A stretch of DNA of 64,000 nucleotides from Cyanidium caldarium (lineage: Eukaryota; Rhodophyta; Bangiophyceae; Cyanidiales; Cyanidiaceae). The translations under genes and the position numbers were made by a program. The notes below the pieces were generated by a model. That model did no database searches, was not told the origin of the DNA, and saw nothing but the letters and a program-made list of their open reading frames with translations. Every line of letters starts with the position of its first letter. Position 1 is the first letter of the stretch. Below are positions 37,383-54,423 of this stretch, in pieces. The stretch spans positions 163,330 through 227,329 of the forward strand of contig JANCYW010000020.1 of the NCBI GenBank assembly GCA_026184775.1. Reading direction: 5' to 3'.

Positions 37383-38705
37383 ATGGGTCTCTGGCACCGT
37401 ATAACTCGTTCGCGAAGCTTGAAACTGGTGCTTGCACTGCATGTACTGTTCGTCGGCGTGTAGCTTGTGGTCAGGCCGACGCGATGGTGCGCTTGGTGGG
37501 ATCGTCGCGACCTCGAGGAGGCGGTGTACGGCGCGGTGATTTCCGCGCCCGACAACCAACGCGCGCAGCTGCAGGCGTCGTTGGCGCGGCAGCTGTTTCG
37601 GATGTGTGAGTTTTTCGTGCAGCATCGACGGGAGTGTCATAACGAATATCGGTGTCTGATGGAACGGTTGTCGCAGCAACCGGCGGGGTTTTTGCGCCCG
37701 TCGCACCGCTCTTGTCGACGGGCGGCGTGGGCAGCGCTGCGCGATCCGCTGGCGTCGCAACTGGTGCGCCAGTGTTATTCCTCCAACAGCACCCGCCGGC
37801 TGGATATAGAGACGTTGCAGCGCGTCAGCGGAGTGCACGGATGTTCGCGGGAGAAGAACCGGCTGTGGATGGTGCTGATGGTGCGCAACGAGGCGCACCT
37901 GCTGATCGAGAACCTATTGTATCACTTGGCGTTGGGCGTGGATCACTTTCTGGTGTATGACGATCACTCGGCGGATAACTTGCGCCCGGCGCTGCAGCCA
38001 TTTGTAGACGCGGGTCTGGCGACGCATATTCCGGTGGCAGACGGGTTGCGGCAGCTGGAGGTGTATGACGCGGCCGTGGCGTACGCGCGTGACCGCCAGG
38101 TGCGATGGCTGGCGGTGATCGACGTGGACGAGTTTTTCGTGTCCGCTCGATCGGCCTGCATGGCGGCGTTGCTGGAGGAGGTGTATCGGCAACACGTCGA
38201 GCGCCTCAGCATCGTGGCCATCAACTGGCGGTTCGTGCACACCGACGTCTTCTTCGACGACCGCGGCATGTTTCAGGCGGAGCGCGCCAACGATTCGGTG
38301 GGTGCGGCCAACTTTCACGTCAAAGCGATTGTCATTCCCAATCGCGTGGGCCGTTTCACTTCCCCACACGATACCGCCCCGGTGGGACAGTGGCAGGCGT
38401 TCAGCCCCGGCGGGCGAGAGGTGAACGGACCGTTCTTGGAACCGCCCGATGCCGAGGACACCGCGCTGCTGCATTTTCACGCACAGTCGCCGGCGGGATG
38501 GATCCGCAAACGGATTCGCGGTCGCGCTGACTTTCGCCACTCGGACATGGAGGCCCGAAAAGAGACGTTCTTGAATGACGACGCCATGCAACTGCTGCAG
38601 GAGTGGTCCACGCACACGGGGCATGCGGCACCGCCGGATCACCCGCTGGAGAAGGCACTGCGAGAGACGATAAGCAAGTTGCGCAGGGCGCTGGATGGTC
38701 TGTAA
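37383..38705 (+). pseudogene. GT92/DUF23-like glycosyltransferase, array copy 2, interrupted by in-frame TAG
   Basis: A frame starting at ATG 37383 encodes a basic start and hydrophobic anchor (SLKLVLALHVLFVGV) and then meets TAG at 37,461-37,463. The very same frame continues without another stop to 38,705 and encodes a complete catalytic domain: FRMCEFFVQHRRECHNEYRC, WMVLMVRNEAHLLIENLLYH, DDHSADN, AVIDVDEFFVS, INWRFVHTD, PPDAEDTALLHFHAQSP. All motifs lost in copy 1 are kept. Ignoring the TAG, the length would be 440 codons, equal to its neighbours. Either the gene was inactivated very recently, the TAG is read through, a downstream start makes a soluble protein, or there is a sequencing error. 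Confidence 0.65.
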
Positions 38706-38932
38706 AAGGCACTGCGCCCGATATACACGAGACCCGTTCGGGAGCGCATTGGATGCGCAGTGTCGAGCGCGGGTCGATCGGGCATTGCGGCCTCCACACT
38801 GCGACGTCTGCGGCTTCCACGTGTGCAGCGGAGATCGCGCCCGATCGGATGGCGTCTCCGGACGCGTGGCGGGAGATTCGGGTCGCAGCGGTGTTTCTCC
38901 TCACGCGTTTCCGACGTTGTCCGCAGCAAACC

Positions 38933-40252
38933 ATGCGATCGCGGAGGCCATTCTATGTGCTTTGCCGCTCCGGCTTGCTAGGGTTGGCGTCGCTGCTCTT
39001 GTGTGTTGCGTATTTTACGTACCGATCCGGACGGATGTGCAGGCTGTTGGGCGTGGACACTGCCGCGGACGCCGAGCACGGTGCGGTCGTCCGCGAGCCG
39101 GACAATGACCGCGCGGAGGTGCAGGCGTCGCTGGCGCGGCAGACGTTTCGGATGTGTGAGTTTTTTGTGCAGCACCGGCGCGAGTGCCGCAACGAATACC
39201 GCTGTTTGGTGGACCGACTGATGCAGCAGCCGCCCGGCTTTCTGCGGCAGTCGGCAACGCCTTGTTGGCGAGCGGTGGCGGCGGCATTGCGCGATCCGTG
39301 GTCACCACGACTGGTGCGCAGATGCTACTCGTCGAACAGCACTCGCCGGCTGGATGCCGACGCTGTCGTTCGGGTGCAGCAAGTGAACCAGTGTGCCGGC
39401 GACGGCAGACAAGTGTGGATGGTGCTGATGGTGCGCAACGAGGCGCGCCTGCTCATCGAAAACCTGCTGTATCATCTGTCGCTGGGCGTGGAACGCTTCC
39501 TGGTGTTTGATGACGGCTCCACCGATAATGTGCGCGCGGCGCTGCAGCCATTCATCGACGCCCGCGTCGTCCGCTACACCCGCTTGACCGGCCGCTATCG
39601 GCAGCTGGTGGTGTACGACGTGGCCACCGAGCTGTGTCGCCAGCACGGCGTGCGCTGGCTCGGCGTGGTCGACACCGACGAATTCTTTGTGTCCACGCGC
39701 GCCACCTGCATCCGCACCGTGCTGGACGAGGTGTACCGACGCAACGAGTCGCAGCTGGGGGCGGTAGCTCTGAACTGGCGCTTCGTCGGTGCCGATCCGC
39801 TGTTGGACGAGCGCGGCGCCTGGCAGTGGGAGCGTTCGCGCTTCTCGATCGGCGCGCCCGACAAGCACGTACGGGTGTTTGTGATGCCGGATCGGGTGGG
39901 TGCCTTTGCCGGCCCGCATCATACGCGCTCGCGGGGGCCCTGGCACGCCCTGAGCGTCGACGGGCGGGTGGTGGACGGGCCATTCCTGGAGCCGCCCGAG
40001 GCGAACCAGACGGTGCTGCTGCACGTTCAGGCCAAGACGCCGGCCGAGTGGGTGCGCAAGCGCATCCGCGGCAAGGCGGACTTTTACAACTCAGTGCTTC
40101 GCGGAGAGTCGAATCTGTTCTACAACGAGGACGCCATCGCGCTGCTGCACGAATGGCGGCAGACGCCACTGGCGGCGCCGCTACCGAATCATCCGCTCAC
40201 CGCGTCGCTGAAGAACAACGTGCAGCAGTTGCACAGGGCGTTGGATGGGTGA
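38933..40252 (+). CDS. GT92/DUF23-like type II membrane glycosyltransferase, array copy 3
   Basis: 439 residues from ATG 38933; ATGs at 38,752 and 38,849 are in frame but would put ~28-60 polar residues before the anchor. Signal anchor SGLLGLASLLLCVAYFTY (~13-30). It has the Cys-containing stem motif FRMCEFFVQHRRECRNEYRC shared with copy 2, then WMVLMVRNEARLLIENLLYH, FDDGSTDN, GVVDTDEFFVS (DxD-type metal/nucleotide-sugar site), LNWRFVGADPLL, and PPEANQTVLLHVQ. GT92 members transfer galactose or related sugars onto glycans; acceptor and donor here are unknown. It is the closest relative of copy 2. Confidence 0.85.
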   Translation: MRSRRPFYVLCRSGLLGLASLLLCVAYFTYRSGRMCRLLGVDTAADAEHGAVVREPDNDRAEVQASLARQTFRMCEFFVQHRRECRNEYRCLVDRLMQQPPGFLRQSATPCWRAVAAALRDPWSPRLVRRCYSSNSTRRLDADAVVRVQQVNQCAGDGRQVWMVLMVRNEARLLIENLLYHLSLGVERFLVFDDGSTDNVRAALQPFIDARVVRYTRLTGRYRQLVVYDVATELCRQHGVRWLGVVDTDEFFVSTRATCIRTVLDEVYRRNESQLGAVALNWRFVGADPLLDERGAWQWERSRFSIGAPDKHVRVFVMPDRVGAFAGPHHTRSRGPWHALSVDGRVVDGPFLEPPEANQTVLLHVQAKTPAEWVRKRIRGKADFYNSVLRGESNLFYNEDAIALLHEWRQTPLAAPLPNHPLTASLKNNVQQLHRALDG

Positions 40253-40554
40253 CGAATGGGAGGAGCCGCGACAGAGAGACGTGCCGGGCAGTCAACGTGG
40301 TACGGGTCAGGTGCGTGGAGGATAGGTCGGTATCGAGTCGATAACGCAGTGTACAACGCACAATGTGCCGATACAGTGCACCTGCACAGTCGGTATGGAA
40401 TTCCTTTGCGATCACAGCGAGCGCGTGAGCTGCACGTTACGTGTGTGTGTGTGTGTGAGAAAATCGATCACGCTGATGGCGCGAAATTCTCCGCGCGGGA
40501 ACCTCCGCTGGAGCGTTGGCGCTGTGGCTCCCCGCTCCTCCGTGTGCTTCAAAG
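40253..40554. other. 302-bp intergenic spacer between array copies 3 and 4
   Basis: Contains a (GT)8 dinucleotide run at 40,441-40,456, about 100 bp upstream of the copy 4 start. The upstream spacer of copy 1 likewise carries a CA run. No gene is seen. Confidence 0.5.
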
Positions 40555-41898
40555 ATGAAGCTCTCTTCTCCCGTGATCACGCCACTGCGACGTTTCTGCG
40601 GTATGCGACGGACGCAGTTCGCCATACTCGTGCTGGTCCTCCTGATCATACTGACTGTCGGGGCCACTCGGCAGTGCCCACTGCTCCCTGACCACCACCC
40701 TGGCAGCGCGCAGGCCGGCGAGGGATGGGTGGCGGCGCCCGACCAAGACGGCCGCGCGGCTGTGCGGGCGTCGCTTTCCCGCCAGGTGTCGCATATGTGT
40801 GAGTTTTTCGTGGAGAGGCAGCACGCCTGTCGGCGTGATTACAACTGTTTGTTGCGGTTGTTGGCGCGCCAGCCACCCGAGAGGCTGCTTCGGCCCGTGC
40901 GCCGCTGCTGGCGACTGTTGGGGGGGATGTGGAAGCGCACGTCCGTGCCTCTGGCAGTGCGACTGTGCACCTCTACCAACAGCTACCGGCGCGTCACTCC
41001 CGAGATACTGGAGCGGGTCATGTCGGTCAACGGGTGCCCGCGGCTCGGCAAGTACGTGTGGTTTCAGATTCTCATCCGCAACGAGGCGCGCCTGCTCACC
41101 GAGAATCTGCTGTATCATCTGTCGCTCGGTGTGGAGCACTTTATCATTCACGATCACGGCTCCAGCGATAATCTGCTAGAGGCGCTGCAACCGTTTATGG
41201 CCCGCGGCCTGGTAACGTACCGCACGCTGCCCGCTGGCAGAGTGCTGCCGTGGGTATACGACCAGGGCGTCGACATCGCCCGCCAACAGGGCGTGCGCTG
41301 GGTGTTCGCCATCGACACCGACGAGTTGGTCGTGTCCAACCGGAGCACCTGCCTGGCGCCCATCCTGCAGGGCGTCGAGCAGCAGCACGCTGACACCGTC
41401 GGCTCGTTCGCCATAAATTGGCGCATGGTCGGACGCGATCCGCTGCTGGACACGAGCGGCATGCTGCAGCCGGAGCGGTCGGCGCTTTCCATCGGAGAGG
41501 CCGACCAGCACATCAAGTCGTTTGTGCGCCCCGACCGGAGCTTGCACTATCTGGATCCGCATCACGTCAATCATCCGGCGCCGTATGTGTGCGTCAGCCC
41601 CAACGGCAACACGGTGCACGGACCGTTCCACATCCCGCCGGATGCCGAGGACACCGCGCTGCTGCACTTTTTCGGCAAGTCGCCGGCCGAGTGGGTGCGC
41701 AAACGGATGCGGGGCCGCGGCGATATGGATAATGACGCTTTGAAGCTCGAGCAGCATCATTTTTACAATGACAACGCGCTGAGCATACTGCAAGAGTGGT
41801 CGAGCATGAAGATCGCCTCACCACTACCGGATCATCCGCTCACCGCGTCGCTGACGAACAACGTGCAGCGTCTGCGCCAAGCGATAGAGGGTGCATGA
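40555..41898 (+). CDS. GT92/DUF23-like type II membrane glycosyltransferase, array copy 4
   Basis: 447 residues from ATG 40555; ATG 40603 just before the anchor (TQFAILVLVLLIILTVGAT) is also possible. Motifs: VSHMCEFFVERQHACRRDYN, WFQILIRNEARLLTENLLYH, HDHGSSDN, FAIDTDELVVS, INWRMVGRDPLL, PPDAEDTALLHFFGKSP. Its sequence HFIIHD, and the SALSIGEAD/HIKSF stretch, are shared specifically with copy 1, whereas copies 2 and 3 share HFLVYD/RFLVFD. This pairs 1 with 4 and 2 with 3, so the array probably grew by at least two duplication steps. Copy 4 keeps the DxD-type site that copy 1 lost. Confidence 0.85.
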   Translation: MKLSSPVITPLRRFCGMRRTQFAILVLVLLIILTVGATRQCPLLPDHHPGSAQAGEGWVAAPDQDGRAAVRASLSRQVSHMCEFFVERQHACRRDYNCLLRLLARQPPERLLRPVRRCWRLLGGMWKRTSVPLAVRLCTSTNSYRRVTPEILERVMSVNGCPRLGKYVWFQILIRNEARLLTENLLYHLSLGVEHFIIHDHGSSDNLLEALQPFMARGLVTYRTLPAGRVLPWVYDQGVDIARQQGVRWVFAIDTDELVVSNRSTCLAPILQGVEQQHADTVGSFAINWRMVGRDPLLDTSGMLQPERSALSIGEADQHIKSFVRPDRSLHYLDPHHVNHPAPYVCVSPNGNTVHGPFHIPPDAEDTALLHFFGKSPAEWVRKRMRGRGDMDNDALKLEQHHFYNDNALSILQEWSSMKIASPLPDHPLTASLTNNVQRLRQAIEGA

Positions 41899-42144: not shown

Positions 42145-43773
42145 ATGGCTCATCTTCGCCTCCCGATGCGACTCGCTACCATCTTTCGCCGACCACTCCT
42201 CCTCATCCTCCTCTTACTGGGGGTGCTGCGAGTCGGCGCGGCGGCGACGTCATCAGGCACCTCGGTCGCCCTGACGGACGAGACGTTCGACGCACACGTC
42301 TGCTCGCAGCCGCTGGCACTGATCAAGTTCATCGCTCCGTGGTGCGGCCACTGCAAGCGCATGAAAGCCGACTGGGACGCGGCCGCCAAAGCTTTGGCAG
42401 GCCGCGACGGCGTGCTGCTGGCGGAGGTGGACGCCACCACCGAGACCAAACTGCGCGATCGGTACGGTGTGCGCGGTTTCCCGACCATAAAACTGTTTGT
42501 GAGTGGCGAGCCGGTGGCCGACTACAACGGCGACCGCTCCACGGCGTCGTTGGTGTCGTTTGTGGAGCGCCAGCTGTCGCCGCCGGTGCACGAGGTGCGC
42601 ACCGCCGCGGCCGCGGAGCGGTGGACGCAGGCGGAGGCGGCCTCGGCGCCGCGGGTGGTGCTGGCGCTGACTGACTCGAAACTGGATGCGGCGAAGCGGT
42701 CGGCGCTGCGGACGACGTTGGAAGGTGTGGCACGTCAGTTGCGCGAGACGCTGACCAATGTGACCTTTCTGGTGGCGGAACAGGCGGAGGTGTTGAAAGC
42801 GCTGGGCGCGGATGCATCCGCGGATGGCACCGCAGTGCTGGTGTTGCGCGCCGCCGACGATGTGGCGGCCGGTCGAGAGCGCATCGCGCGCTTGCCGCTG
42901 GATACCGTCGCGCTGGGTAAGGCCGGCAAAAAGGCGGCGGCGATGAAGCCGGAGCTGGAACGGCTGGCGGATCAAGTCACCCAGTTCGTGCGGCGGCAGG
43001 CGGCGCCGCTGGTGGGTGAGATATCGCAAGCGACGGCGTCGCTGTACGAGGAGCTGGGCAAGCCGCTGTTTATTCTGTTCGATCCGTCGCCGGCAGCGCC
43101 CGAGCCACGCGGCCGGCAGTTGATGCGCCAGCTGGCCGCAAAGTATCACGAGCGCCTCAGCTTTGTGATGGCCGACGACGCCGCGCTGGGGCAGTTTCGC
43201 AAGTACGTCGGCTGCAGCGGCAGCAAGCGCTTTGCCCTTCACGTGCTCGGACAGGACGTCAACTTCGCGTACGACGGCGAGGAGGACGAGCCCGCCATGG
43301 CGGCGTTTCTGGAGCAGTACCTGTCGGGCGAGCTGAAGCCGACGCTGCGCTCCGAGGAGCCGCCCGCCGACAACACCGGTGCGGTCCGCGTGGTGGTCGG
43401 CAAGACGTGGGAGTCGATCGTGATGGATCCGGGCAAGGATGTACTCGTGGAACAGTACGCGCCGTGGTGCGGCCATTGTCGCAAACTGGAGCCGGCGTAC
43501 GAGGAGCTGGCGCGCCAGCTGGCGCACGTGCCCACGCTGGTCATCGCCAAGATGGACGCGACGGTGAACGATGCGCCCGGCGAGCACAAAGCGCGCGGCT
43601 TTCCCACCATCCTCTTCTTCCCGGCCGGCGCCGACAAGAAAGCGGTGCGGTACGAGGGCGACCGCAGCGTGGCCGATATGGCCGCCTTTTTGCGCAAGCA
43701 CGCCACCCACAAGTTTACCATCGGCGGCGGCGGCGATGGGGCGTCCGCCGCCGGCGCCAAAGATGAACTCTAG
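42145..43773 (+). CDS. PDI: protein disulfide isomerase with KDEL retention signal
   Basis: 542 residues. Oxidises and rearranges disulfides in the ER. Signal peptide LLLILLLLGVLRVGAAA (~18-34). Two thioredoxin domains with CGHC active sites: APWCGHCKRMKADW (~63-76) and APWCGHCRKLEPAY (~437-450), each followed by the buried GFPTI proline loop. Two redox-inactive thioredoxin-like domains (b, b') lie between, the second with PLFILFDPSP and YDGEEDEPAM. The protein ends in Gly/Ala plus KDEL. The a-b-b'-a' layout and length match classical PDI. It is convergent with the TPR-Tic22 gene, 75 bp apart. Confidence 0.95.
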   Translation: MAHLRLPMRLATIFRRPLLLILLLLGVLRVGAAATSSGTSVALTDETFDAHVCSQPLALIKFIAPWCGHCKRMKADWDAAAKALAGRDGVLLAEVDATTETKLRDRYGVRGFPTIKLFVSGEPVADYNGDRSTASLVSFVERQLSPPVHEVRTAAAAERWTQAEAASAPRVVLALTDSKLDAAKRSALRTTLEGVARQLRETLTNVTFLVAEQAEVLKALGADASADGTAVLVLRAADDVAAGRERIARLPLDTVALGKAGKKAAAMKPELERLADQVTQFVRRQAAPLVGEISQATASLYEELGKPLFILFDPSPAAPEPRGRQLMRQLAAKYHERLSFVMADDAALGQFRKYVGCSGSKRFALHVLGQDVNFAYDGEEDEPAMAAFLEQYLSGELKPTLRSEEPPADNTGAVRVVVGKTWESIVMDPGKDVLVEQYAPWCGHCRKLEPAYEELARQLAHVPTLVIAKMDATVNDAPGEHKARGFPTILFFPAGADKKAVRYEGDRSVADMAAFLRKHATHKFTIGGGGDGASAAGAKDEL

Positions 43774-43848: not shown

Positions 43849-44852
43849 CTAGGCCGGTGTGTCGTGTTGATCGCGGCGGTCCGCCTCGGCCGTCTGGGGC
43901 GGCTCCCGCTCGGCGCGCCGTTTGGCCAGTTCCGCCTCCAGAAACTCGCGGATGGTCTCGCGGTCACCGCCGCGGCGGGCCAGCTCACGCGCCGTCAACG
44001 GCCGGGAGGTCGGTGCGGGCGTGCTGGCATTCGCCGCGCGCCCCGTGTTGTGACCGCCGCCACGCCGCGTCGCTGCCGCGGTTTTCTCCAGCATCCGGCG
44101 CACAGTGAGCTGGTGGAGCAGCGTGCGCAACTGCTCGGCGGTGAGCGCCTGGGTGGCCGGCGCCGCTCCTTTCCTCTGTTCCTTCTTCTCCGGCGGCACC
44201 TCCTCTTCGCTCTTGTTCAGGTCGTCCAGCGGGAACGGCAGGCCCAGGAAATCCATCGAGCGACGCGGCGGCACGAAGAGGATGGAGGAGAATTCGTCCG
44301 AGTTCTCGTCGGCGGCCTCGGCCATGCGCCGCAGCACATCGTCCAGCGTGCCGACGTCGATGTCGCACGTCTCCGGCACCTGCTCGAGCGGCAGCGGCTC
44401 GCCGACGTTGTGCTCGGTGACCGGCATCTCCACCGGCTTGCCGGAGGCGATCGCCGCCTCGGCCGCCTTGCGCAGCTCGGTCCAGGCGAAATCCAGATCG
44501 TCCTTGTCGAAGAAGAGCGGCATGTACTGGCGCTTGTCGCGCAACAGCGTCAGGCCCTTGGCCTGGAAAACGGGGATGCCGTTAAAGTTGTCCGGAGTCA
44601 GTTCTTCGTACTCGCCAGGCGGTGCCTCGTCGTTATGCGCCACTGCGGGTGCATCGACTGCAGTGACCGGTGGTGGCATCTCGGTGGTCGTGTCGGCGGT
44701 TGGCGCTTTCGCATCGCAGAGGGCTACTTCGGCACCCATCGCAGCAGGCGGTGCTGATTTCTCACCGGTGGCCACTTTGTGGGCGACCTCTGTAGATGGC
44801 GCTTTCACATCGCTGGACGCTGCTTCGGCATCCGCCTCCGCCTCCGCCGCCA

Positions 44853-44886
<34 letters not shown>

Positions 44887-45748
44887 ATCGTAGCTCTTCA
44901 TGATCTCAATGGCCGTCTGCACCGACACCAGTGATGGTCGCAGCTGGTTCAGGGTGCGCGGTTGCGAGTACGCCTCCAGGCCGGCCTCGGGACCCTCCTC
45001 CAGGCCGCGCCGCACCACCTCCGCCAGCAGCGCTGCCTGCTCGTTGCGAACGATCTTGAGCACTTGCGGCACGTCCAGGGACACGATGCGGGCGCGCTCG
45101 TTGGCGGTCTCCTCGTTGTCGCGCACCCACTGCAGCATCTCCTGCGCATCCCGCACATCCAGATACAGCGGATACATGCCGTTGCCGCCATCGTACGCAA
45201 TGTAGAAGGGCGCGCCGTTGGCGCCCACCACCGTAAACGCCGGCACGCCCTTCAGCATGTTAAGCATCGGCTCTGGCGGCAGCACGTACATCATGGCCTC
45301 CAGCTCGAAGCAGGCGTGCGCAAAGTCGGCCAGGGTGGTGAGCTTGGCGAAATGCGGCGGCAGCGGCGGCATAGCCGGCAGCGCCGCGTTCGGCTGGAAT
45401 GCGTCCAGCTCGCCCTTCTCCTCGGCCTCCGCCCGCCGCTGCTGCTCCGCCAGCATCTCCTCTATCGGGTGTCCCTCGCGGACCATGTCCTCCTTCCACA
45501 CGCGCTCGGCGTGCACGAGCGCCTGCTCTAGCGCCTCCGCCGCCTCCTCGAAGCGGCGCAGGTGCAGCAGCACCTGTCCACGTCGCTGGTGCGCCTTGAA
45601 CCAGTTGCCGCGCAGGGCAACACAGGCGTCAGCGTCCTCCAGCGCCTTGGCGTGCTTTTGAAGGTTGTAGTACGCCGCCGAGCGATTGGAACGCAACGTC
45701 GCCTCCAGCTCGCCCAGCACCGACGCCTCAGCGTCCGCGCTCCGGTTG

Positions 45749-45787
<39 letters not shown>

Positions 45788-45987
45788 AGCACATTCAGCG
45801 CCTGCGTATAGCAGCGCACCGCCTTGCCGTACGCTCGCTTCCTCAGGTACTCGTTCCCCGTCGCGCTCATGCGTTGCACCATGCTCACCACCCCGGCGGC
45901 GGCAGCGGAGGACGTCGGCGAGTGGGCGGTGGCGTTGGCAGGTTGCGATACCGTATGAGTCGCTTCCGCCACTTTCGTTTGTTCCAT
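43849..45987 (-). CDS. TIC22: TPR-Tic22 fusion protein
   Basis: 712 residues from ATG 45987. Residues ~35-175 form a TPR domain (GNEYLRKRAYGKAVRCYTQA, NRSAAYYNLQKHAKALEDAD, AHQRRGQVLLHLRRFEEAAE) interrupted by a polyQ run. A Tic22 domain follows in two halves: LKGVPAFTVVGANGAPFYIA (~243) and, after a polyQ/acidic linker, FNGIPVFQAKGLTLLRDKRQ with YMPLFFDKDDLDFAWTELRK (~465-510), ending in the SSILFVPP strand (~565). Tic22 is an intermembrane-space component of the plastid protein import route, normally ~250 residues. A TPR front is not part of known Tic22, and no transit peptide is evident. The C-terminal ~130 residues are basic/charged. The Tic22 call rests on motif similarity. Confidence 0.7.
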
Positions 45988-46557
45988 GTTGAGAGAGAAT
46001 GGGGCGCGCCGCTACCCAATTGCGTGCAGAGACGAGAGAATACGCGGCGCTCGCACCACCCGGCTCCCGACAGGCAGAGCGCCGCCCGGCCCGTGAATGG
46101 CCGCAGCGCCCGACGGCAGCGCGCGGCCGTGAGAAACGCGCGATTCGGCGTCGGTCACGCGGCGTTGCGGGCATTTTGTCACAGAGGGAAGAGGAGGCAC
46201 CGCCGCGGTCGACACGGTCCGCTGCGAGACGGAACCCGATACCCGCCCGTGGTCAGCATCAGGCCTGAAGCACGTCCTCATACAGACTACCGATGTCGCC
46301 AGCACGGCTCCACGTGGCATATCTCCCCTCGGCACCTATGCTCCGGCCCGTATCAGTCTCCCTGTGGCAACTCCGCCTCGCCTGCTCGCTCTCGTCTCCC
46401 TACCTCCGTGTCTCCGCGTCTCTGTATGCTGCCTCTCCGCATGCCCTAGGCACCTCTTCCGTGCCGCTCCTCCGTCATTCCGGCCATCGCATCTCGGCAC
46501 CGTTCGGTGGCCGCTGCCTGCGCGTTGGCCGCATGCGGTGACTCGCCCTCCCATCGA
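45988..46557. promoter_or_regulatory. 570-bp divergent intergenic region between TPR-Tic22 and VPS13
   Basis: Should carry both promoters. Short open frames (80-107 residues) cross it on both strands, but they are Arg/Ser-rich, overlap each other and lack motifs. I see no RNA gene or repeat. Confidence 0.5.
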
Positions 46558-49500
46558 ATGTTGGAGGAGCACTTGGCGCGCTACATAAGCAACCGACTGT
46601 CCAAGTATGTGCGCGGCGGCCTCGATGAGGATCGGTTGCGGGTGGCGTTGGGGCGATCGGGCCGCGTGGAGTTCACCGAGGTGGAGCTGGAGACCGCCGC
46701 AGCCGAGCGGTTTGTGGCCGACGCCCTCGGCCTCCGCGGCTGGCGACTGCGAGAGGCGCGCGTCGGGCAGCTACTGGTGGATGTGCAGTGGAGCGGCTGG
46801 ATCACCGTGCAGCTGAACGCCGTGAGTGTGTGCGTGGGCACGGAGGACGCCGACGACCGTGCGCCCGATGCCGGGTTCGCGGTGTGGAAGCGGTCGGTGT
46901 TGGCGGCCGATGAGCGGCGGCGACAGCTGTCGCGTGCACTGTTGGTGGCGTTGTGGGAGCGCCAGCGCGCGGGCACGTCGGCGCCCGAGGCAACTCCTGG
47001 ACGTACCTCATCCGGCTGGTGGTCGGTGTTGACCGACCGCGCTGCCGCTTATGTATTGCGGCGGCTGCGAGTGCGGGTGGAGCGGGTGCATATTCGTGTA
47101 CAGGACGATGCGCCGTCGTCGGTCGCCAGACGTGACCGAGAACGCCGCGTGGGATACGGTGCCTGCTGGGGGCTGGTGCTGCGCAAGTTGGCGTTGGACG
47201 ATGTCGCGCCGACGGCCGCAGCGTCCGAGGCAAACGACGATGACCCTGCCGCCGCCGGCAACGATGCTGCGGTGCTGGATCGTTGCCTGAGCGTTTGGGA
47301 TATGGGCTTGTATTTTGACGAGAGCGGCACCACTGCCAGCGCTGCCGGCGATGGCCTCCTCGGCTTGGACGGGTGGCTGGCGCACATCGCACCGCATTTT
47401 GTCCTGACGCCGGCGTCGGGGCACGTGCGGCTGCGCATTGGGCACTTGTACTCGTCGTCGTCGTCGTCGTCGGCGACGCATACGGTGACGGCTGCGGCGC
47501 GGGTGGACGACGCCTCGTTGCGGCTGCGGCGCGGGCAGTATCGCGGCGTGGTGGTGGGCATCGAGCGGCTGTCGTCATCGACGCTGATGAGTGCGGCGGC
47601 CGCAGCGGCGTACGCCACGGAGCAGCGCTTTCGACAGGCGGCTGCATGCCACCAAGTGCTGCTACAAGAGCCGCCGACGGGCACGCCTGTGGCGCGGCGG
47701 CGTTGGCGATTCGCGTTGGCATGTGCGCGCACGTTGGCGCAAAAGCACTCGTGGCGGCGCTCGCCGGCGCAATGGCGGCAACGCCAACAACAGCGCCTCC
47801 GATATCGAGAGCTGTACGTGGCGGCGCACGGCCGTGCCGACGCGGCCGCACGGGAGGCGCTGTTGGCGTTGGAGGCGCAGCTGGACCTGGAGGACGTGCT
47901 GTGGTTTCGCACCCTGGCCGAATCGCGCGTGCGCGCCGCGCTGCAAGCGCCCTACGCCGACTCACCACCGCCAGCAACAACAGTGACGAATTCTCGTACG
48001 GAGCGTCGCCAAACCTGGTCCCAATGGGCGGCATCGTGGTGGTGGCAGAGCAGCGACACCGCCGCCGACGCGGAAGACGCATCGCCGGCCGACCCGTTGG
48101 AGCAGGAGGTCACTGCGGAGTTGCAACAGCGGTTTCGGGAGTGGGTGGACGAGGGCCGCTCGGCCGACGACGACGACGACGCCATCGACGACGACGTGCA
48201 GCAGGTGTCCGCGTCGCTGGAGGCGATGGCCGCCGCAGAGGAGCAGCCGGCACTGCACTTGTCCTTTGCCGTCGCCCACGCCAGCGTGCAACTGGATTGG
48301 GATGACCATCTTCCTTTTGTGGCGATGCGTCTGCAGGACATGACGGCCGCCTTGTGGCGTTCGCACAGCGCCACGCGCGTCCGTCTGGAGGCCCGCGATC
48401 TGGAGGTGCACGCCGACGAGGACGGTGCAGGGGAATTGCCGCAGCGGGTGGTGTTTGTGCGTCGCGCCCGCGACGAGCGGCTGCTGCGACTGCAATTCGA
48501 CAGCCCGCACCCGGAGCGCGCCCCGGAGTTCCGCTCGCGGCTGTCGCTGCGGGGCATGCCGCTGTCGGTGGTGCTGGCGCCGCACTACTTGCAAAGGCTG
48601 TCGACGTTTGTGTCGGTGCAGGATGCGCAGTTGCAGGCGCTGAGAGCGGCGGCCGGCGAGGCGCTGACCTCGGCGGTGCAGCAGTTGGGCCGTCTGGCGT
48701 CCGACAGCCTGGCCAACTGGAGCGGCCTCGGCACCGAGCTGGACATTCACGTCGCTGCGCCGCGGGTGTATGTGCTGAGTCGGTTGCGTGCGGCCGGGCA
48801 GTTTTCCGCCCTGAACGGTGTGGAGGGTGCTCCTCCATCGTCGTCGTCGTCGTCGTCGTCGTCCCGGCAGACCTCCGTGTTCCAGCGGGTGCGTCGGGCG
48901 TGCAGTGTGGACGGGGCGATGGTGGTGTTGGCGTTTGGCGAGTTCTCGTTGCAGAGTTGCGGGGGTGCTCAGACGCCTCTGCAACGACGGCTGGCGGAGA
49001 TGGACGCGCTGGAGCGACAGACCGAGCTGTCGTCGTGGAGCGGGGATGCGCTGCGCCCGACGCAGTACGGCGAGCGCAACAGCGACACCCGATGGGAGCT
49101 GGCGTGCGAGTTGGTGGCGCGCGACTTGCACTGTCATCTGGAGTATTCGACGGATGCGGCCGCGCTGCGTGGTGCAGAATCGTGTCCGATTCTGTCGCCG
49201 AGCATGGCGCGGGTGTTTGTGGGCGTGGCGCGGACGACGCCGGCGGCAGCGGCAGCAGCCAGCACGTCGGAAGGGGTGATGCGGGCGAATCGACGGGCGG
49301 TGCTGATATCGGCCGAGTTGGCGTCCGTCGCTGCCACGCTTTCCACCGAGGTGAGTGTGCGGGTGCGTCGGCTGTTGCGGCACTTGTCGCGGGCGATGCG
49401 CGACGGGAGCGCCGTGTCGCCTTCGGTGCCGGAGGCTTCCCGTGGCCGTGCGGAATGGGAGGCGCCGGAGCCGTTCCGCCTAGAGACGGGAGAGACGACC

Positions 49501-52500
49501 CCACGCCCTGCACCCGATCATCCGTCGGGTGGCCCTTTGCGGCCGGCACTGGCGCTGGATGTGCAGGTGCGCGGCGATGGCGCGCAGCTGACGCTGGTGG
49601 GTGAGCATCGCCAACAGATGCTGCTGAGCGCTTCGCGATGGGAGTGGGGCCTGAAAGCGCTGCACGATGCCGATGCCCTGAGCGTGGCGATGGCGTATGC
49701 GGTGCGCGACTTGGCGGTGCGGCTGCGCGGTCGGGATGGCCGCGGCGGCGCCTCGTTGGATGGGGTCGCGCCAGTGTCGGTGCGGGCGCGAGCGACGCTG
49801 CGTCGTGACGGCCCCCGCGGCACGCGCCTGTGCGCGGCGGTGTCCACCACGGCGTTGGATGTGGCGTTGCGGCGGCGCGATCTGCTCACGTGGTATCGGT
49901 GGGGTGCGCAGTTGCTGGGTGGAACGCATTCCACGGCACCGTCGTCTTCGTCGTCCGCATCGGACAGTTCGTGGTCGGCCGCGGTGACCCGGCTGCTGCA
50001 GGCGGCGCGGCGCTATCGTCGAGGGCGCGGACGTCCGGGTCGGGCGCGCATCACGCCGCGCCACGGTAGCGTGGTGCGACTGCGCGACGTCAGCACCGGT
50101 CTGCGGTGTGTGCTGCAGTGGGATGCCGCGCTGCACGCGTATGTTTTGGCGCTGGAGCAGGCGGCGACGGCAGACGCGGCGTCGTCGTCGGCGGAGGTGT
50201 TGCGCGAGTTTGTGGTGCAGCGCGCCGACCGCGCCGACGCCACCGCTTTCCGATTGCTGTCGCGCGCTGTCCGCTGCAACGGCGCGCCGTCGCCTCTGGG
50301 CGCATTGCCGTCGACGTCGACGTCGCCGCGGTGGGTGGGGTGTCCGACCGACGCCACGCCACTGCGAGCCACCACCGGCAGCAGCAGCAGCAACGACAGG
50401 AAACCCGATGCTTCATCACCGAGCCGTCTGCCCACCGATTCGGTGTGGCGCGCGGCGTTGGCGTCGGTGGACGGCGTCTGTCTGCTGCAGACGAGCAGCG
50501 GACGATGCCTGCAGTGGAGCGACACGGGCGTGGCCTGTTTGGCGGAGGCGCCCACGACGCGCGTACAACTGGAGGATGCCGAAGGCGATGCGATGGTGGA
50601 CGCTGCGGAGGCCTGGCGTTGCAGCTTCCGCTTCGACAGCGACGGCACGACGTGTCGGGTGTTGGACGATACCGGAAATGGTGACGACGGTGACGATGCC
50701 TTGGCGGTGCCGCTGGTGGCGGCCGCTGCGACCGACACCCACCTCGAGATGGTATACGGCACGCGACTGCCACGCCATTCGGTGCGGTTGCAGTCGACGC
50801 TGTCGCTGCAGGTGTACGACCTGGGAGCGGACGCGTATCGGCCGCTTCTGGCGCCGTGTCGGGCGAGCGTGCGGCTGGAACGGCAGCTGGGTGACGCCTG
50901 CGCCACCGCGATGCTGAGCGTCCACCCGGAGCAGCCGTTGCGCCTGTCCGGCTCCGAGCAGGACTGGTGCGAGCTGTGGCGCATATACCAGTACATGTGG
51001 CTGCGACGCGCCGACTTGCCAGAGGCGTCTCGCCGGGTGTACCGCTTCACCAACGCCACCGACTCGGATGTGTCGGTGGCGATATGGTGCTGCCGGGGGC
51101 GTGACCCCGTGGGAGAGCATGTCGGACCGGGTGCGCAACGCTTTCCGCTGGGCGTGGTGGCGGCGGGGCGGTGCGATGCGCCGTTACGTCTGCCGCCAGC
51201 GGCACTGCCCAACGCCCGGGGGCGGCTTGTGGATCGTGCTGCGTTGCATTCCGGTGTTGCGCCTGTCGTGCGACAGCTGGAGCTGAACGTGTTGCAGAGC
51301 GGTGCTTTGGTGCGCGTGCCGCTGCACGACTCGGTGCCGGTGGTGTCGGTGGACGGTCGACCGCTGTCGTGGCAAGTGCGGCGGACGTTGCGGTCGTTGT
51401 CGCTGACGTTGCGGGCGCCGTTGCGACTGCACAATCTATCGCGACAGAGCACGCTGCTGGTGCGTGGCTATTGTCGGGCGGACGGGGCGGAATCGTCGCT
51501 GGTGTCGTGGCGTCTGTTGCCGCAGCAGACGGTGTATGCGGGGGCGGCGCAAGAGGTGCGCGCACTGTCCATCGCGTTTGTCGACGGCGACGGGGAGTGG
51601 TGTGAGATGTTCTCGGTGCAGGGCGGTGCCATGTTGGAGATGTATGGCGGTGCGGTGCGCATTGCACACGTAGCCGAGTGCGGTGCGGCGCAGTGTGTGC
51701 GGGTGACGCGCCTGGTGCACGCGGACCGCTCGATGGAGGTGGTGTTGGCGCCGCCGCTGGAGGTGCGCAACGCACTACCGCTGTCGTTGGTGTTGACAGT
51801 GCATCGGCGAGTATGGGTGGCCGAGCCGCTGCAATCGTTGGAGCTGTTTCGGGTGCCACTGGCGGCGCGCTGCGAGCTGGGCGTATCGGTGGGCGACTAC
51901 GACCCGGAGCAGCATCGCACGGTGACTGTGTTTCGGTTGTCGTCCAAGGAGAGCGTGGAGACGTTGTCGTCGGCAGCAGGTGGAGACGACGACGGTTCGG
52001 CGGCGGCGACGACGCCGCTGTTTGACAAGGTGGTGCGTTGCGCGCAAGGCACGGCGCGGCTGCGCGGCTATTTGGGGCAGGTCGGTCGGAACGCCGTGGT
52101 GGTAGCGTACGCGTCCTGTGTGGTGCACAATCGGGTGGAGGGGCAAGCGGTGACGTTTGTGGAGGTGGGCACGGGACGGAACGAGCGCGGCCAAGAGCCA
52201 CCGGCACCGCTGCGGTGTGCGCCCGGTTCGGCGGTGTTGTTGTCGGCGGCGCGCTTCCGGCTGGTCGGCTGCGACGAGCCGGTACGCTGGGAGGTGGTGT
52301 CGAATCAGGGCTACTTTTTGCGGCTGAGCGGGATGGCGTTGACGCTGGCGCCGGCCACCTCGATGCAAGAGGAGGAGGTGGTGCTGAAGCGGCTGTTGGC
52401 GGGCATCGGGCTGGACGGTCCTCTGAGCGTGGGCAGCGCCAAGCAGGCGCCGGTGTTGGGCATGCGCACGCTGGCGTTGCGTCCGGAGTTGGTGTTGGTG

Positions 52501-54423
52501 AACGAGTTGGCGGCGGCGGATGATGCGTTGGTGGTGCAGGGCGAGCGCGGCACGTTGCGGTTGCCGGCGGGGTCGGCGGTGCCGTATCTGGAGCCGGTGG
52601 CGGGTGATGCTGCCGCCTCCATTCGGGTGGCGTGCGCCGCGGAGCTGGCGTGGTCGGGGCGTCTGCCGTTGCAGGAGTCGGGCAGCTGTTTCCTGTGGCT
52701 GGACGGCCCGACGAACCGGCTGTTGTCGGTGAGCTCGCTGGTGGAGCGCGGCGGCTGCCATGTGGTGCGTTTCCGGGCGGTACGTGACGAAAACGCGCCG
52801 TACCGCCTGGTGAACCGTTCGTCGGTGACGTTGCGGCTGTCCCAAGCGGCAGACACCCCAACGCCGATGGTGTGGCTGCCGCCGGACACCGACTGTGCGT
52901 ATGCTTTCTACGAGCCGACGCTGCGACACACGTTGCGCGGCGTGATCGAGGACGCGGGCGGCGAGGAGGTGTTCGAGCTGCCGGATTTGGAGGCGGCGTT
53001 TCTGGATGCACCGGCCGACGACGACGACGACGACGACGACGACGGCGACGAGAGTGCGTGGCATCGACCGCTGAGCGGGCTGCAGCGCCACCCGTTGTGG
53101 GTGCGCATGCGGGCGCACGGGGCCACCCGGGTGGTAGAGTGGCTGGATACGCCGCGGGTGCAGCTGACGGTGTTGGATACGGCGGCCGTCAGCGCGTCGC
53201 CCGGGCCGCTGGAGCGGGTGTTGTTGTCGGCGTTGGTGCCGTCGGCCAGCATCGAGTTGGACGCGTCGGCGGCTGCTGGCGGGGTGCAGTTGACGCTGCA
53301 GCTGGACGACTTGCTGGTGAGTGTGTCGGCGGATCTGGCCAGTCGGGCGCGTTATCGCCACTGGCAGTGCTGGCTGGGGGACGTGCGGGTGCGGGATCGG
53401 GCGTCGGACGCCAGTTTCCGCACGGTGCTGGCGGCGCAGGTGACGTCGCCGGGCGTGCCGGCGCTGGACGCGGAGTTGGTGTCGTACACGCGGTACGGCG
53501 AGTGGGAGTGGGCGCCGCTGCGCATCGGCCTGTCACCGGTGCGGGTGAGTGTGGATGCGCACTTTGCGGCCAGTGCGATGGCGTTTCAGGCGGCGCTGCC
53601 GCGGGTGCTGACGGAGGAGGAGACGCGGCAAGATACCGGGCTGGGCACGATCGTGGCGGAGGTGTGGATGCCGCATCCGGAACCGGCGGGTGAGCGCTGG
53701 GAGGGCGGTACCGGTAGCGGGCCGTTGACGGTGGCGCTGATGCGCCTGTCGGCGGTGGAGGTGGAGTTGTCGTTTCGGCAGCGCCAGCGGGAATCGCGGC
53801 GCGCCACCTCGACCGACGCCGTGTGCGCGGAGGCGGCGGCGGCGTACGTCGTGTTTCAAAACACGGTGGCGATCATGCCGTCGTTGGAGCGCGCCAAGGT
53901 GCAGCTGGCGGGGTTGGAGTTGCGCAACCACTCGGTGCTGCATCGGTACGAGCTGGCGACGATGGTGACGTCGAGCTGGCTGCGCAGCTTGACGCGGCAG
54001 TGGTATAAGCTGGTCGGGGCGATGGATGTCGCCGGCGCCCCGCTGACGGCGATGCGCACGCCGGTGTCGCAGTTTCGGGAGCTGTACACGACGTTGGCCA
54101 CCGGGCGGGCGACGGCCAAGTCGTTGTCGTACGGGGCGGTGAGCGCGTTCGGGTCGTCGGCGATGGCGGCCAGCGAGATCGGGCAGGCCACCGCCGGCAG
54201 CTCGATCAGGGCGGCGGCGCGGACGGTGGGCAACACCGGGATGACGCTACTGTCGCGCGGGCTGATGCGATTGGGTGAGCGCCAGTGGCAGAGAGGCGAG
54301 GAAGAGGGAGAGACGGCGAAAGGATCACGAATGGTAAGCGAGGGGAGGCGCGAGGAAGCCGACTGGGAGGATGAGTTTGTGTCTGGGCTGAGCGGCGTAG
54401 CGGCCGACCATTGGATAAAATGA
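46558..54423 (+). CDS. VPS13: VPS13-family bridge-like lipid transfer protein
   Basis: 2,621 residues from ATG 46558, which opens with the chorein motif MLEEHLARYISNRLSKYV. VPS13 proteins form a long hydrophobic groove that moves lipids between membranes at contact sites. Visible parts: chorein_N (~1-120, with FTEVELETAAAERF and WRLREARVGQLLVDVQWSGW); a long beta-rich rod with low-complexity Asp/Ser insertions; a VAB/SHR-BD-like region (~1,500-2,150) containing repeated strand pairs such as LRLHNLSRQSTLLVRGYC, LEVRNALPLSLVLTVHR and PYRLVNRSSVTLRLSQA; and a C-terminal region with SFGSSAMAASEIGQ-type helices. It is shorter than human VPS13A-D (>3,000). The codons are very GC-rich, unlike the sequence just downstream. 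Confidence 0.9.
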   Translation: MLEEHLARYISNRLSKYVRGGLDEDRLRVALGRSGRVEFTEVELETAAAERFVADALGLRGWRLREARVGQLLVDVQWSGWITVQLNAVSVCVGTEDADDRAPDAGFAVWKRSVLAADERRRQLSRALLVALWERQRAGTSAPEATPGRTSSGWWSVLTDRAAAYVLRRLRVRVERVHIRVQDDAPSSVARRDRERRVGYGACWGLVLRKLALDDVAPTAAASEANDDDPAAAGNDAAVLDRCLSVWDMGLYFDESGTTASAAGDGLLGLDGWLAHIAPHFVLTPASGHVRLRIGHLYSSSSSSSATHTVTAAARVDDASLRLRRGQYRGVVVGIERLSSSTLMSAAAAAAYATEQRFRQAAACHQVLLQEPPTGTPVARRRWRFALACARTLAQKHSWRRSPAQWRQRQQQRLRYRELYVAAHGRADAAAREALLALEAQLDLEDVLWFRTLAESRVRAALQAPYADSPPPATTVTNSRTERRQTWSQWAASWWWQSSDTAADAEDASPADPLEQEVTAELQQRFREWVDEGRSADDDDDAIDDDVQQVSASLEAMAAAEEQPALHLSFAVAHASVQLDWDDHLPFVAMRLQDMTAALWRSHSATRVRLEARDLEVHADEDGAGELPQRVVFVRRARDERLLRLQFDSPHPERAPEFRSRLSLRGMPLSVVLAPHYLQRLSTFVSVQDAQLQALRAAAGEALTSAVQQLGRLASDSLANWSGLGTELDIHVAAPRVYVLSRLRAAGQFSALNGVEGAPPSSSSSSSSSRQTSVFQRVRRACSVDGAMVVLAFGEFSLQSCGGAQTPLQRRLAEMDALERQTELSSWSGDALRPTQYGERNSDTRWELACELVARDLHCHLEYSTDAAALRGAESCPILSPSMARVFVGVARTTPAAAAAASTSEGVMRANRRAVLISAELASVAATLSTEVSVRVRRLLRHLSRAMRDGSAVSPSVPEASRGRAEWEAPEPFRLETGETTPRPAPDHPSGGPLRPALALDVQVRGDGAQLTLVGEHRQQMLLSASRWEWGLKALHDADALSVAMAYAVRDLAVRLRGRDGRGGASLDGVAPVSVRARATLRRDGPRGTRLCAAVSTTALDVALRRRDLLTWYRWGAQLLGGTHSTAPSSSSSASDSSWSAAVTRLLQAARRYRRGRGRPGRARITPRHGSVVRLRDVSTGLRCVLQWDAALHAYVLALEQAATADAASSSAEVLREFVVQRADRADATAFRLLSRAVRCNGAPSPLGALPSTSTSPRWVGCPTDATPLRATTGSSSSNDRKPDASSPSRLPTDSVWRAALASVDGVCLLQTSSGRCLQWSDTGVACLAEAPTTRVQLEDAEGDAMVDAAEAWRCSFRFDSDGTTCRVLDDTGNGDDGDDALAVPLVAAAATDTHLEMVYGTRLPRHSVRLQSTLSLQVYDLGADAYRPLLAPCRASVRLERQLGDACATAMLSVHPEQPLRLSGSEQDWCELWRIYQYMWLRRADLPEASRRVYRFTNATDSDVSVAIWCCRGRDPVGEHVGPGAQRFPLGVVAAGRCDAPLRLPPAALPNARGRLVDRAALHSGVAPVVRQLELNVLQSGALVRVPLHDSVPVVSVDGRPLSWQVRRTLRSLSLTLRAPLRLHNLSRQSTLLVRGYCRADGAESSLVSWRLLPQQTVYAGAAQEVRALSIAFVDGDGEWCEMFSVQGGAMLEMYGGAVRIAHVAECGAAQCVRVTRLVHADRSMEVVLAPPLEVRNALPLSLVLTVHRRVWVAEPLQSLELFRVPLAARCELGVSVGDYDPEQHRTVTVFRLSSKESVETLSSAAGGDDDGSAAATTPLFDKVVRCAQGTARLRGYLGQVGRNAVVVAYASCVVHNRVEGQAVTFVEVGTGRNERGQEPPAPLRCAPGSAVLLSAARFRLVGCDEPVRWEVVSNQGYFLRLSGMALTLAPATSMQEEEVVLKRLLAGIGLDGPLSVGSAKQAPVLGMRTLALRPELVLVNELAAADDALVVQGERGTLRLPAGSAVPYLEPVAGDAAASIRVACAAELAWSGRLPLQESGSCFLWLDGPTNRLLSVSSLVERGGCHVVRFRAVRDENAPYRLVNRSSVTLRLSQAADTPTPMVWLPPDTDCAYAFYEPTLRHTLRGVIEDAGGEEVFELPDLEAAFLDAPADDDDDDDDDGDESAWHRPLSGLQRHPLWVRMRAHGATRVVEWLDTPRVQLTVLDTAAVSASPGPLERVLLSALVPSASIELDASAAAGGVQLTLQLDDLLVSVSADLASRARYRHWQCWLGDVRVRDRASDASFRTVLAAQVTSPGVPALDAELVSYTRYGEWEWAPLRIGLSPVRVSVDAHFAASAMAFQAALPRVLTEEETRQDTGLGTIVAEVWMPHPEPAGERWEGGTGSGPLTVALMRLSAVEVELSFRQRQRESRRATSTDAVCAEAAAAYVVFQNTVAIMPSLERAKVQLAGLELRNHSVLHRYELATMVTSSWLRSLTRQWYKLVGAMDVAGAPLTAMRTPVSQFRELYTTLATGRATAKSLSYGAVSAFGSSAMAASEIGQATAGSSIRAAARTVGNTGMTLLSRGLMRLGERQWQRGEEEGETAKGSRMVSEGRREEADWEDEFVSGLSGVAADHWIK

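Follow-up and report, generated by a model that had tools for sequence, protein, structure and literature searches.

A red-algal protein family that joins a clamp-type TPR domain to a Tic22 domain

Results

The stretch of DNA analysed here (the window, 64 kb of the genome of Cyanidium caldarium) carries at 43849..45987 on the minus strand an uninterrupted frame of 712 aa, counted from its ATG, which the list of open reading frames, Pfam and the comparison with relatives all mark as a single gene for a TPR-Tic22 fusion protein. The reading frame is closed by a stop 8 codons before the ATG, which excludes an N-terminal extension within the same exon, although an unseen upstream exon might supply one. 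A chance open frame in GC-rich DNA was rejected, since P0001, which is 88% identical, and 66 further aligned relatives have both TPR and Tic22. The gene stands tail to tail with that of a PDI-like thioredoxin-repeat protein with a KDEL end (42145-43773, plus strand) and, on its other side, faces a long frame at 46507-54423 (plus strand) in head-to-head orientation. The latter is a single open frame of 2638 aa and appears VPS13/ATG2-like, on the strength of Pfam matches that fall short of the cut-offs within residues 1-798.

The TPR domain covers residues about 37-165 (45493..45879, minus strand), where TPR_1 scores 35.8 bits (Pfam cut-off 27.8) and TPR_2 scores 34.2 bits (cut-off 27). Its best PDB matches are the TPR domains of RPAP3, HOP/STI1, SGT, CHIP and Sec72, the last of which belongs to the ER translocon as its TPR subunit and was solved together with a tail peptide of Ssa1 (5l0y); we know of no Tic22 domain in any of these proteins. 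TPR chains of OM64 match only weakly (E 0.011 and 0.015). If, as we take it, K8, N12, N43, K73 and R77 of HOP TPR1 are the residues that grip the EEVD tail, their counterparts in the window protein are S41, N45, N101, K131 and R135, that is, four of the five clamp residues with a Ser at K8, as in P0001. Conservation of these positions across the family alignment is nearly complete: N43 and K73 are kept in 68/68 rows and R77 in 67/68, and of the 50 rows extending into the first repeat, all have N12 and 44 have K8 (R in four, S in two), with all five residues present together in 44. Because of the Ser at K8, the full strength of the clamp is doubtful in the window species and in P0001; in Rhodosorus, Arg replaces K8 and Trp replaces R77.

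The clamp was also read in six genes of the genome after a comparison with a Galdieria TPR query, in which match counts are lower bounds. The best-matching TPR gene, on C14, has three TPR stretches, on which account it is probably STI1-like, and reads KNNKR at the clamp positions against SNNKR in the fusion; four other TPR genes read TRNKR, Y-APA, ESHAL and YQNVN, one of which retains three clamp residues. The TPR domain of the fusion looks built as a carboxylate clamp of the Hsp70/Hsp90 kind, which would bind EEVD tails, and its original description as a chaperone-type TPR is upheld by the conservation of the clamp residues across red algae.

Pfam recognises Tic22 (PF04278) in two stretches of the window protein with an E of 8.7e-20 and a score of 71.5 bits, where the cut-off is 23. 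The N-terminal half, as delimited by the family alignment, comprises residues about 234-365 (44893..45288, minus strand), and the six-frame search places the first Pfam stretch at 45049-45369, also on the minus strand. The C-terminal half, residues about 460-590 (44218..44610, minus strand), is the best conserved part according to Pfam, the alignment and the family profile. That profile, built from the Tic22 domains of ten members with the linkers removed and searched against the PDB, matched 8xks (2.4e-31) and 8xqw (3.1e-31), whose Tic22 chains are presumably from Chlamydomonas, as well as apicoplast 4e6z (1.1e-15) and Anabaena 4ev1 (2.1e-14), with the next match at E 0.25. It also indicates that the Tic22 core motifs are retained over the fusion family. 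An hhalign comparison of this part of the fusion with the two Cyanidium paralogues, one of them joined by a near-identical relative, gave a probability of 99.8% over 198 columns. The window protein fails the strict cut-off of the NCBI model TIGR00995 (58.6 bits vs. 413), but this cut-off is unsuited to these sequences, since the C10 Tic22 of the same genome also fails it, with 74.9 bits. The predicted Tic22 identity is thus confirmed by a curated Pfam profile above its cut-off and by a family profile that finds four PDB Tic22 sequences, and at the level of sequence this part of the fusion is a true Tic22. Both Tic22 halves and the core motifs are shared with canonical Tic22 (PF04278; Arabidopsis Tic22-III and Tic22-IV; 8xks/8xqw, 4e6z and 4ev1, E 2e-31 to 2e-14), whereas the N-terminal clamp TPR, the inserted linkers and the C-terminal motif are additional in the fusion, which has no clear transit peptide.

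A six-frame search of the genome (8.79 Mb in 20 contigs, with introns invisible to such searches) found three Tic22 genes: one on C10 (83.7 bits), one on C13 (40.2 bits) and the fusion on C20 (33.4 and 28.5 bits). Pfam shows no domain besides Tic22 in the C10 and C13 proteins. The C13 paralogue matches CDCA13G3741 of Cyanidium caldarium with 100% identity across 86% of the query frame, and a homologue search with an alignment led by it yielded 9 proteins only. The second Tic22 paralogue (P0072; L002:1384-2742, minus strand) is divergent: it contains an insertion of 28 residues and, behind its basic leader, a hydrophobic stretch. For it the homologue search returned a single close relative (P0073) besides its own database entry. 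In the contig scan for bacterial Tic22, none of 65 pattern matches was confirmed.

The two halves of the Tic22 domain are separated in the window protein by about 90 residues that include a polyQ tract. This variable linker (residues about 366-455; 44623..44892, minus strand), identified by repeat scan and alignment, holds the second of two such tracts, which the repeat scan places at 44853-44886 on the minus strand with 11.3 three-base units; the first, a three-base repeat of 13 units at 45749..45787 (minus strand), lies within the TPR region and is not conserved. Runs of five or more Q occur in the window protein alone among the 68 rows. Because such runs are absent from the other 67, P0001 included, both perfect polyQ-coding repeats look like recent expansions, and polyQ as a functional linker was rejected on the same count. 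In the family, the Tic22 domain is commonly interrupted at two sites by insertions that differ in length, and across the alignment the Asp+Glu content of the second ranges from 12 to 37%, with 19% in the window protein. Of the polyQ/acidic linker originally proposed, polyQ, seen in 1/68 rows, is not a family feature.

Near the C-terminus, residues 664-687 (43927..43998, minus strand) form a conserved motif around RRGGDRETIREFL that belongs to no known family. The pattern A(K/R)xIxxRGG(T/S/D)xxxIRxxI, which was composed after the motif had been seen, occurs in 67/68 rows, and the sole row without it, P0068 (386 aa), ends before this point. No Pfam family reached its cut-off here (one Clp_N match, at E 0.021, fell below it), and the comparison with the PDB gave no convincing match, with one at E 0.19.

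Two homologue searches, one with the window protein as query and one with the Tic22 part of its Porphyridium relative, collected 71 different proteins, 67 of which were aligned with the window protein to give the 68 rows of alignment A3. Left out were P0025, with TPR and no Tic22, and three proteins with Tic22 and no TPR, of which P0069 and P0071, on contigs of 1322 and 992 bases, are probably truncated, and P0070 is a model starting at an internal Met. Tic22, TPR_1 and TPR_2 were matched in 68/68 rows, a count that speaks for the integrity of the fusion and not for its frequency, the rows having been chosen by similarity. With both domains above their Pfam cut-offs and present in every aligned row, the TPR-Tic22 fusion originally predicted is well founded.

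We find it hardly credible that an error of assembly or gene modelling has made one gene out of two. A Tic22-only Galdieria model does exist in GenBank and could be read in that way, but its first residue aligns to residue 287 of the fusion P0066, as an internal-Met start would; moreover, the window has one open frame, and many other assemblies and transcript-looking entries show the same fusion. Five entries that look like transcripts from their names (P0016, P0019, P0028, P0031 and P0036) encode both domains, which for other red algae contradicts the production of two separate transcripts. Two separate genes, or an accident of the frame, were rejected because the fusion is conserved among relatives. 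The Galdieria model itself (P0070, Galdieria sulphuraria, named chloroplast inner membrane import protein Tic22) is a C-terminal piece of the TPR-Tic22 fusion and, since it begins at an internal Met, not a canonical Tic22; P0066 lacks a 19-residue stretch that is present in P0070.

Relatives with readable names come from Cyanidiococcus yangmingshanensis, Galdieria partita, G. sulphuraria and G. phlegrea (the last by database code), from Porphyridium aerugineum, P. purpureum, Erythrolobus madagascarensis and Rhodosorus marinus, and from Chondrus crispus, Gracilaria domingensis and Pyropia vietnamensis. Including the window, the fusion is thus found in 12 species of 9 genera, all of them red algae, although readable names are a minority of the 71 relatives; four of the species were checked in the taxonomy, and the remaining named ones we take to be red algae. 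A check of orthologues in Galdieria and C. merolae had been suggested: Galdieria has the fusion, as does Cyanidiococcus, and no readable C. merolae name occurs among the relatives from the three general homologue searches. Compared with the window protein, the aligned relatives have median identities of 41% for the TPR domain, 29% for the first and 56% for the second half of Tic22, and about 15% for linker and tail. Names in the databases cover parts only ('Tic22-like protein' in Gracilaria, 'tetratricopeptide (TPR) repeat protein' and, for the Porphyridium entry, 'Small glutamine-rich tetratricopeptide repeat-containing protein beta').

Cyanidium, Cyanidiococcus and Galdieria represent one side of the deepest split among red algae, and the other named genera the second side. 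Because it is present on both sides, the fusion probably predates the last common ancestor of the named red algae. A tree of 18 rows, a chosen subset, was computed together with two paralogues, which form very long branches (4.85 and 5.15). It strongly supports the pairing of the window protein with P0001, of Cyanidiococcus with P0003, of Porphyridium with Erythrolobus and of Chondrus with Gracilaria, and the grouping of the three Galdieria. Galdieria is grouped with the non-Cyanidiales at a fork of 92/94 support and several deeper forks lack resolution; with this fork and the poor support of the deeper ones, the tree neither proves nor disproves vertical descent. Judged from titles and the beginnings of abstracts, no description of a TPR-Tic22 fusion was found among the literature matches listed, a search outside which most subscription papers lay, nor does the text consulted mention one. 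On its sequences, the fusion is an old red-algal family that joins known parts.

Discussion

The original description had left open the side of the plastid envelope on which the protein resides. By composition, the first 40 residues of the fusion contain 2 basic, 2 acidic and 10 Ser/Thr residues, as compared with 6 basic, 0 acidic and 6 Ser/Thr in the C10 Tic22 and 4, 0 and 10 in the C13 Tic22, both of which start in a transit-peptide-like manner. These counts suggest that the fusion has no clear transit peptide and that its N-terminus is less transit-peptide-like than those of its two paralogues, in line with the original prediction. In many relatives the TPR domain begins within 10-20 residues of the start. 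The 36 residues that precede it in the window protein include many Ser, Thr and Ala and hardly any acidic ones, and in Cyanidium caldarium a weak targeting signal may be present.

The best 19-residue hydropathy mean of the window protein is 1.0, which is below the level of a membrane span, and the means of all rows except P0002-P0004 are 1.42 or less. Those three, of Cyanidiococcus type, reach 2.03-2.06 near residues 202-234, at the start of the Tic22 region, which is near the membrane-span level. A membrane-anchored receptor was rejected for the window protein, as it has no membrane-span stretch; the stretch in P0002-P0004 counts against this rejection. It might also be supposed that the TPR domain lies on the cytosolic surface of the plastid while the Tic22 domain reaches through or into the outer envelope, such that docking and translocation are physically coupled. 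The two-domain design and the long variable insertions of most relatives are what one would expect from such a protein, but the window protein has neither membrane-span hydropathy nor a match to a beta-barrel family in Pfam, the long insertions sit inside the Tic22 domain, and in P0019 (466 aa) they are short, with 21 and 42 residues. We consider this arrangement very improbable.

The chaperones encoded in the genome bear on the same question. Among the eight Hsp70/Hsp90 genes that were read to their ends (a ninth locus, L023, with a weak Hsp70 match, was excluded because its frame is cut by the end of the locus), two have EEVD ends, the HSP90 of L012 (MEEVD) and the HSP70 of L018 (VEEVD), and both are leaderless. 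The other six have no EEVD, and two of them end in RDEL or HDEL, as ER proteins do. With EEVD confined to leaderless proteins in this set, the only clamp ligands found are of the cytosolic type. This, together with the conservation of the clamp, favours the cytosol over the coupling across the envelope that was originally proposed. We infer from these sequence features a cytosolic location, with the fusion most likely on the cytosolic side of the envelope.

A further possibility is that the fusion resides in the intermembrane space, which it would enter without a typical cleavable transit peptide, and that its TPR domain is a scaffold of the translocon. According to the parts of PMC3652856 consulted, Tic22 is targeted by a route unlike the one most chloroplast proteins take, and in Arabidopsis the signal of a YFP-tagged Tic22 broadly resembled a cytosolic one, for which the tag was blamed; a missing signal is then weak evidence against import, and the Ser/Thr/Ala-rich start of the window protein would suit such a route. 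The restriction of EEVD to leaderless proteins among the eight chaperones read argues against this location, as does the fact that an Hsp70 of the plant intermembrane space was later assigned to the stroma (PMC12895209, from the portion consulted), so that the clamp would have been conserved in a compartment without a known ligand. We regard an intermembrane-space protein as improbable.

Alternatively, the protein may be a general holdase co-chaperone of the cytosol, in which Tic22 was recruited for the binding of clients and the link to the plastid was lost. It has no clear plastid targeting signal, its clamp TPR resembles those of HOP-type co-chaperones, and two other Tic22 genes with transit-peptide-like starts are left for the plastid. 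Against it, the Tic22 core motifs are retained throughout the family, and all relatives with readable names are red algae, though neither point is decisive. We regard this explanation as unlikely, if more tenable than a place in the intermembrane space. We infer a role in plastid import from the presence of Tic22 and from the occurrence of the family in red algae.

The explanation that we prefer, and to which we give about even credence, is that the fusion is a nucleus-encoded cytosolic co-chaperone of Hsp70/Hsp90 for plastid precursors. Its TPR clamp would grip the EEVD end of a cytosolic Hsp90 or Hsp70; the Tic22 domain, whose holdase-type fold attaches to POTRA domains of Toc75 in the plant relative, would take over or keep the unfolded precursor; and adaptor and chaperone as a pair would deliver the precursor to a Toc34-like GTPase and a Toc75-like channel at the outer envelope. 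The genome offers candidates for both. A single GTPase exceeds the AIG1 cut-off and fits Toc34 best (TIGR00991, E 2.7e-27, vs. 2.6e-21 for Toc86/159), below the strict NCBI cut-offs, and of two Omp85 proteins, L015 and L016, the latter, which was the one scanned with NCBIfam, has the Toc75 model as its best match, at E 1.5e-16 and below cut-off. In this role, the fusion would fill the place that Toc64 holds in plants. No gene for an amidase-TPR protein of the Toc64 kind was found by the intron-blind six-frame search, the genome having two amidase-family genes, neither with TPR.

Several observations weaken the case for a cytosolic adaptor. The intermembrane space is where the Tic22 proteins known so far do their work, and the literature examined, as far as its text was available, documents no cytosolic Tic22. 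The Ser at K8 in the window protein and the Arg and Trp at K8 and R77 in Rhodosorus cast doubt on the clamp, as do the Ser/Thr/Ala-rich start of 36 residues and the hydrophobic stretch of the Cyanidiococcus-type proteins on the location. Furthermore, the periplastid space of red-derived complex plastids descends from the red-algal cytosol, and a homologue search of limited sensitivity found no readable-name relative from algae with such plastids.

Toc64 is composed of an amidase-like domain, C-terminal TPRs and a membrane anchor. Toc64/OEP64 and the mitochondrial OM64 share with the fusion a clamp TPR on a component of import, whereas the TPR of the fusion is N-terminal and accompanied by a Tic22 domain, with no amidase match and no membrane-span stretch (hydropathy at most 1.0). 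In plants, Toc64 docks Hsp90-bound precursors via its TPR (PMC5296341, in the portion consulted). The portion of PMC12895209 consulted attributes to canonical Tic22-III a chaperone-like activity and a functional interaction with POTRA1 of Toc75. Among land plants, the At5g62650 clade likewise presents a divergent third Tic22-like gene beside two canonical ones (PMC3652856), but the term TPR is absent from the main text of that paper, which dates the clade to a time after red algae had branched off, and we set it apart on this description. PPP1 resembles the fusion in that it serves import in the red lineage and does so in the compartment that corresponds to the red-algal cytosol; it is described with a Q-rich patch at its C-terminus, and the parts of PMC3228799 and PMC7617431 consulted mention no TPR or Tic22 in it, so that it too is set apart by description.

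By origin, Tic22 is a periplasmic chaperone of cyanobacteria. How chaperone-held precursors are delivered to red-algal plastids is, in our judgement, poorly known, and the conserved clamp and wide red-algal occurrence of the fusion make it a candidate for a missing docking factor. Proteins held by chaperones may be passed to red-algal plastids along a path that has no counterpart described in plants, and were the adaptor model correct, a Tic22 domain would work in the cytosol, a compartment for which the literature examined, in its available parts, records none. We suggest, more tentatively and leaning against it, that red algae have a plastid import receptor of their own, in which a soluble clamp-TPR protein with its Tic22 domain turned outward takes the place of Toc64 and leads from Hsp70/Hsp90 to Toc34/Toc75, and which arose earlier than the last common ancestor of the living red algae. 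Tic22 domains would then operate on both sides of the outer envelope.

Scans of the 64-kb window for tRNAs and with Rfam returned nothing, and a scan for bacterial promoters and terminators gave 0 and 3 sites, respectively, which is of no use for this alga. Apart from the genes discussed above, the window contains two adjoining glycosyltransferase family 2 frames on the plus strand, at 38603-40252 and 40516-41898, which are perhaps a tandem pair.
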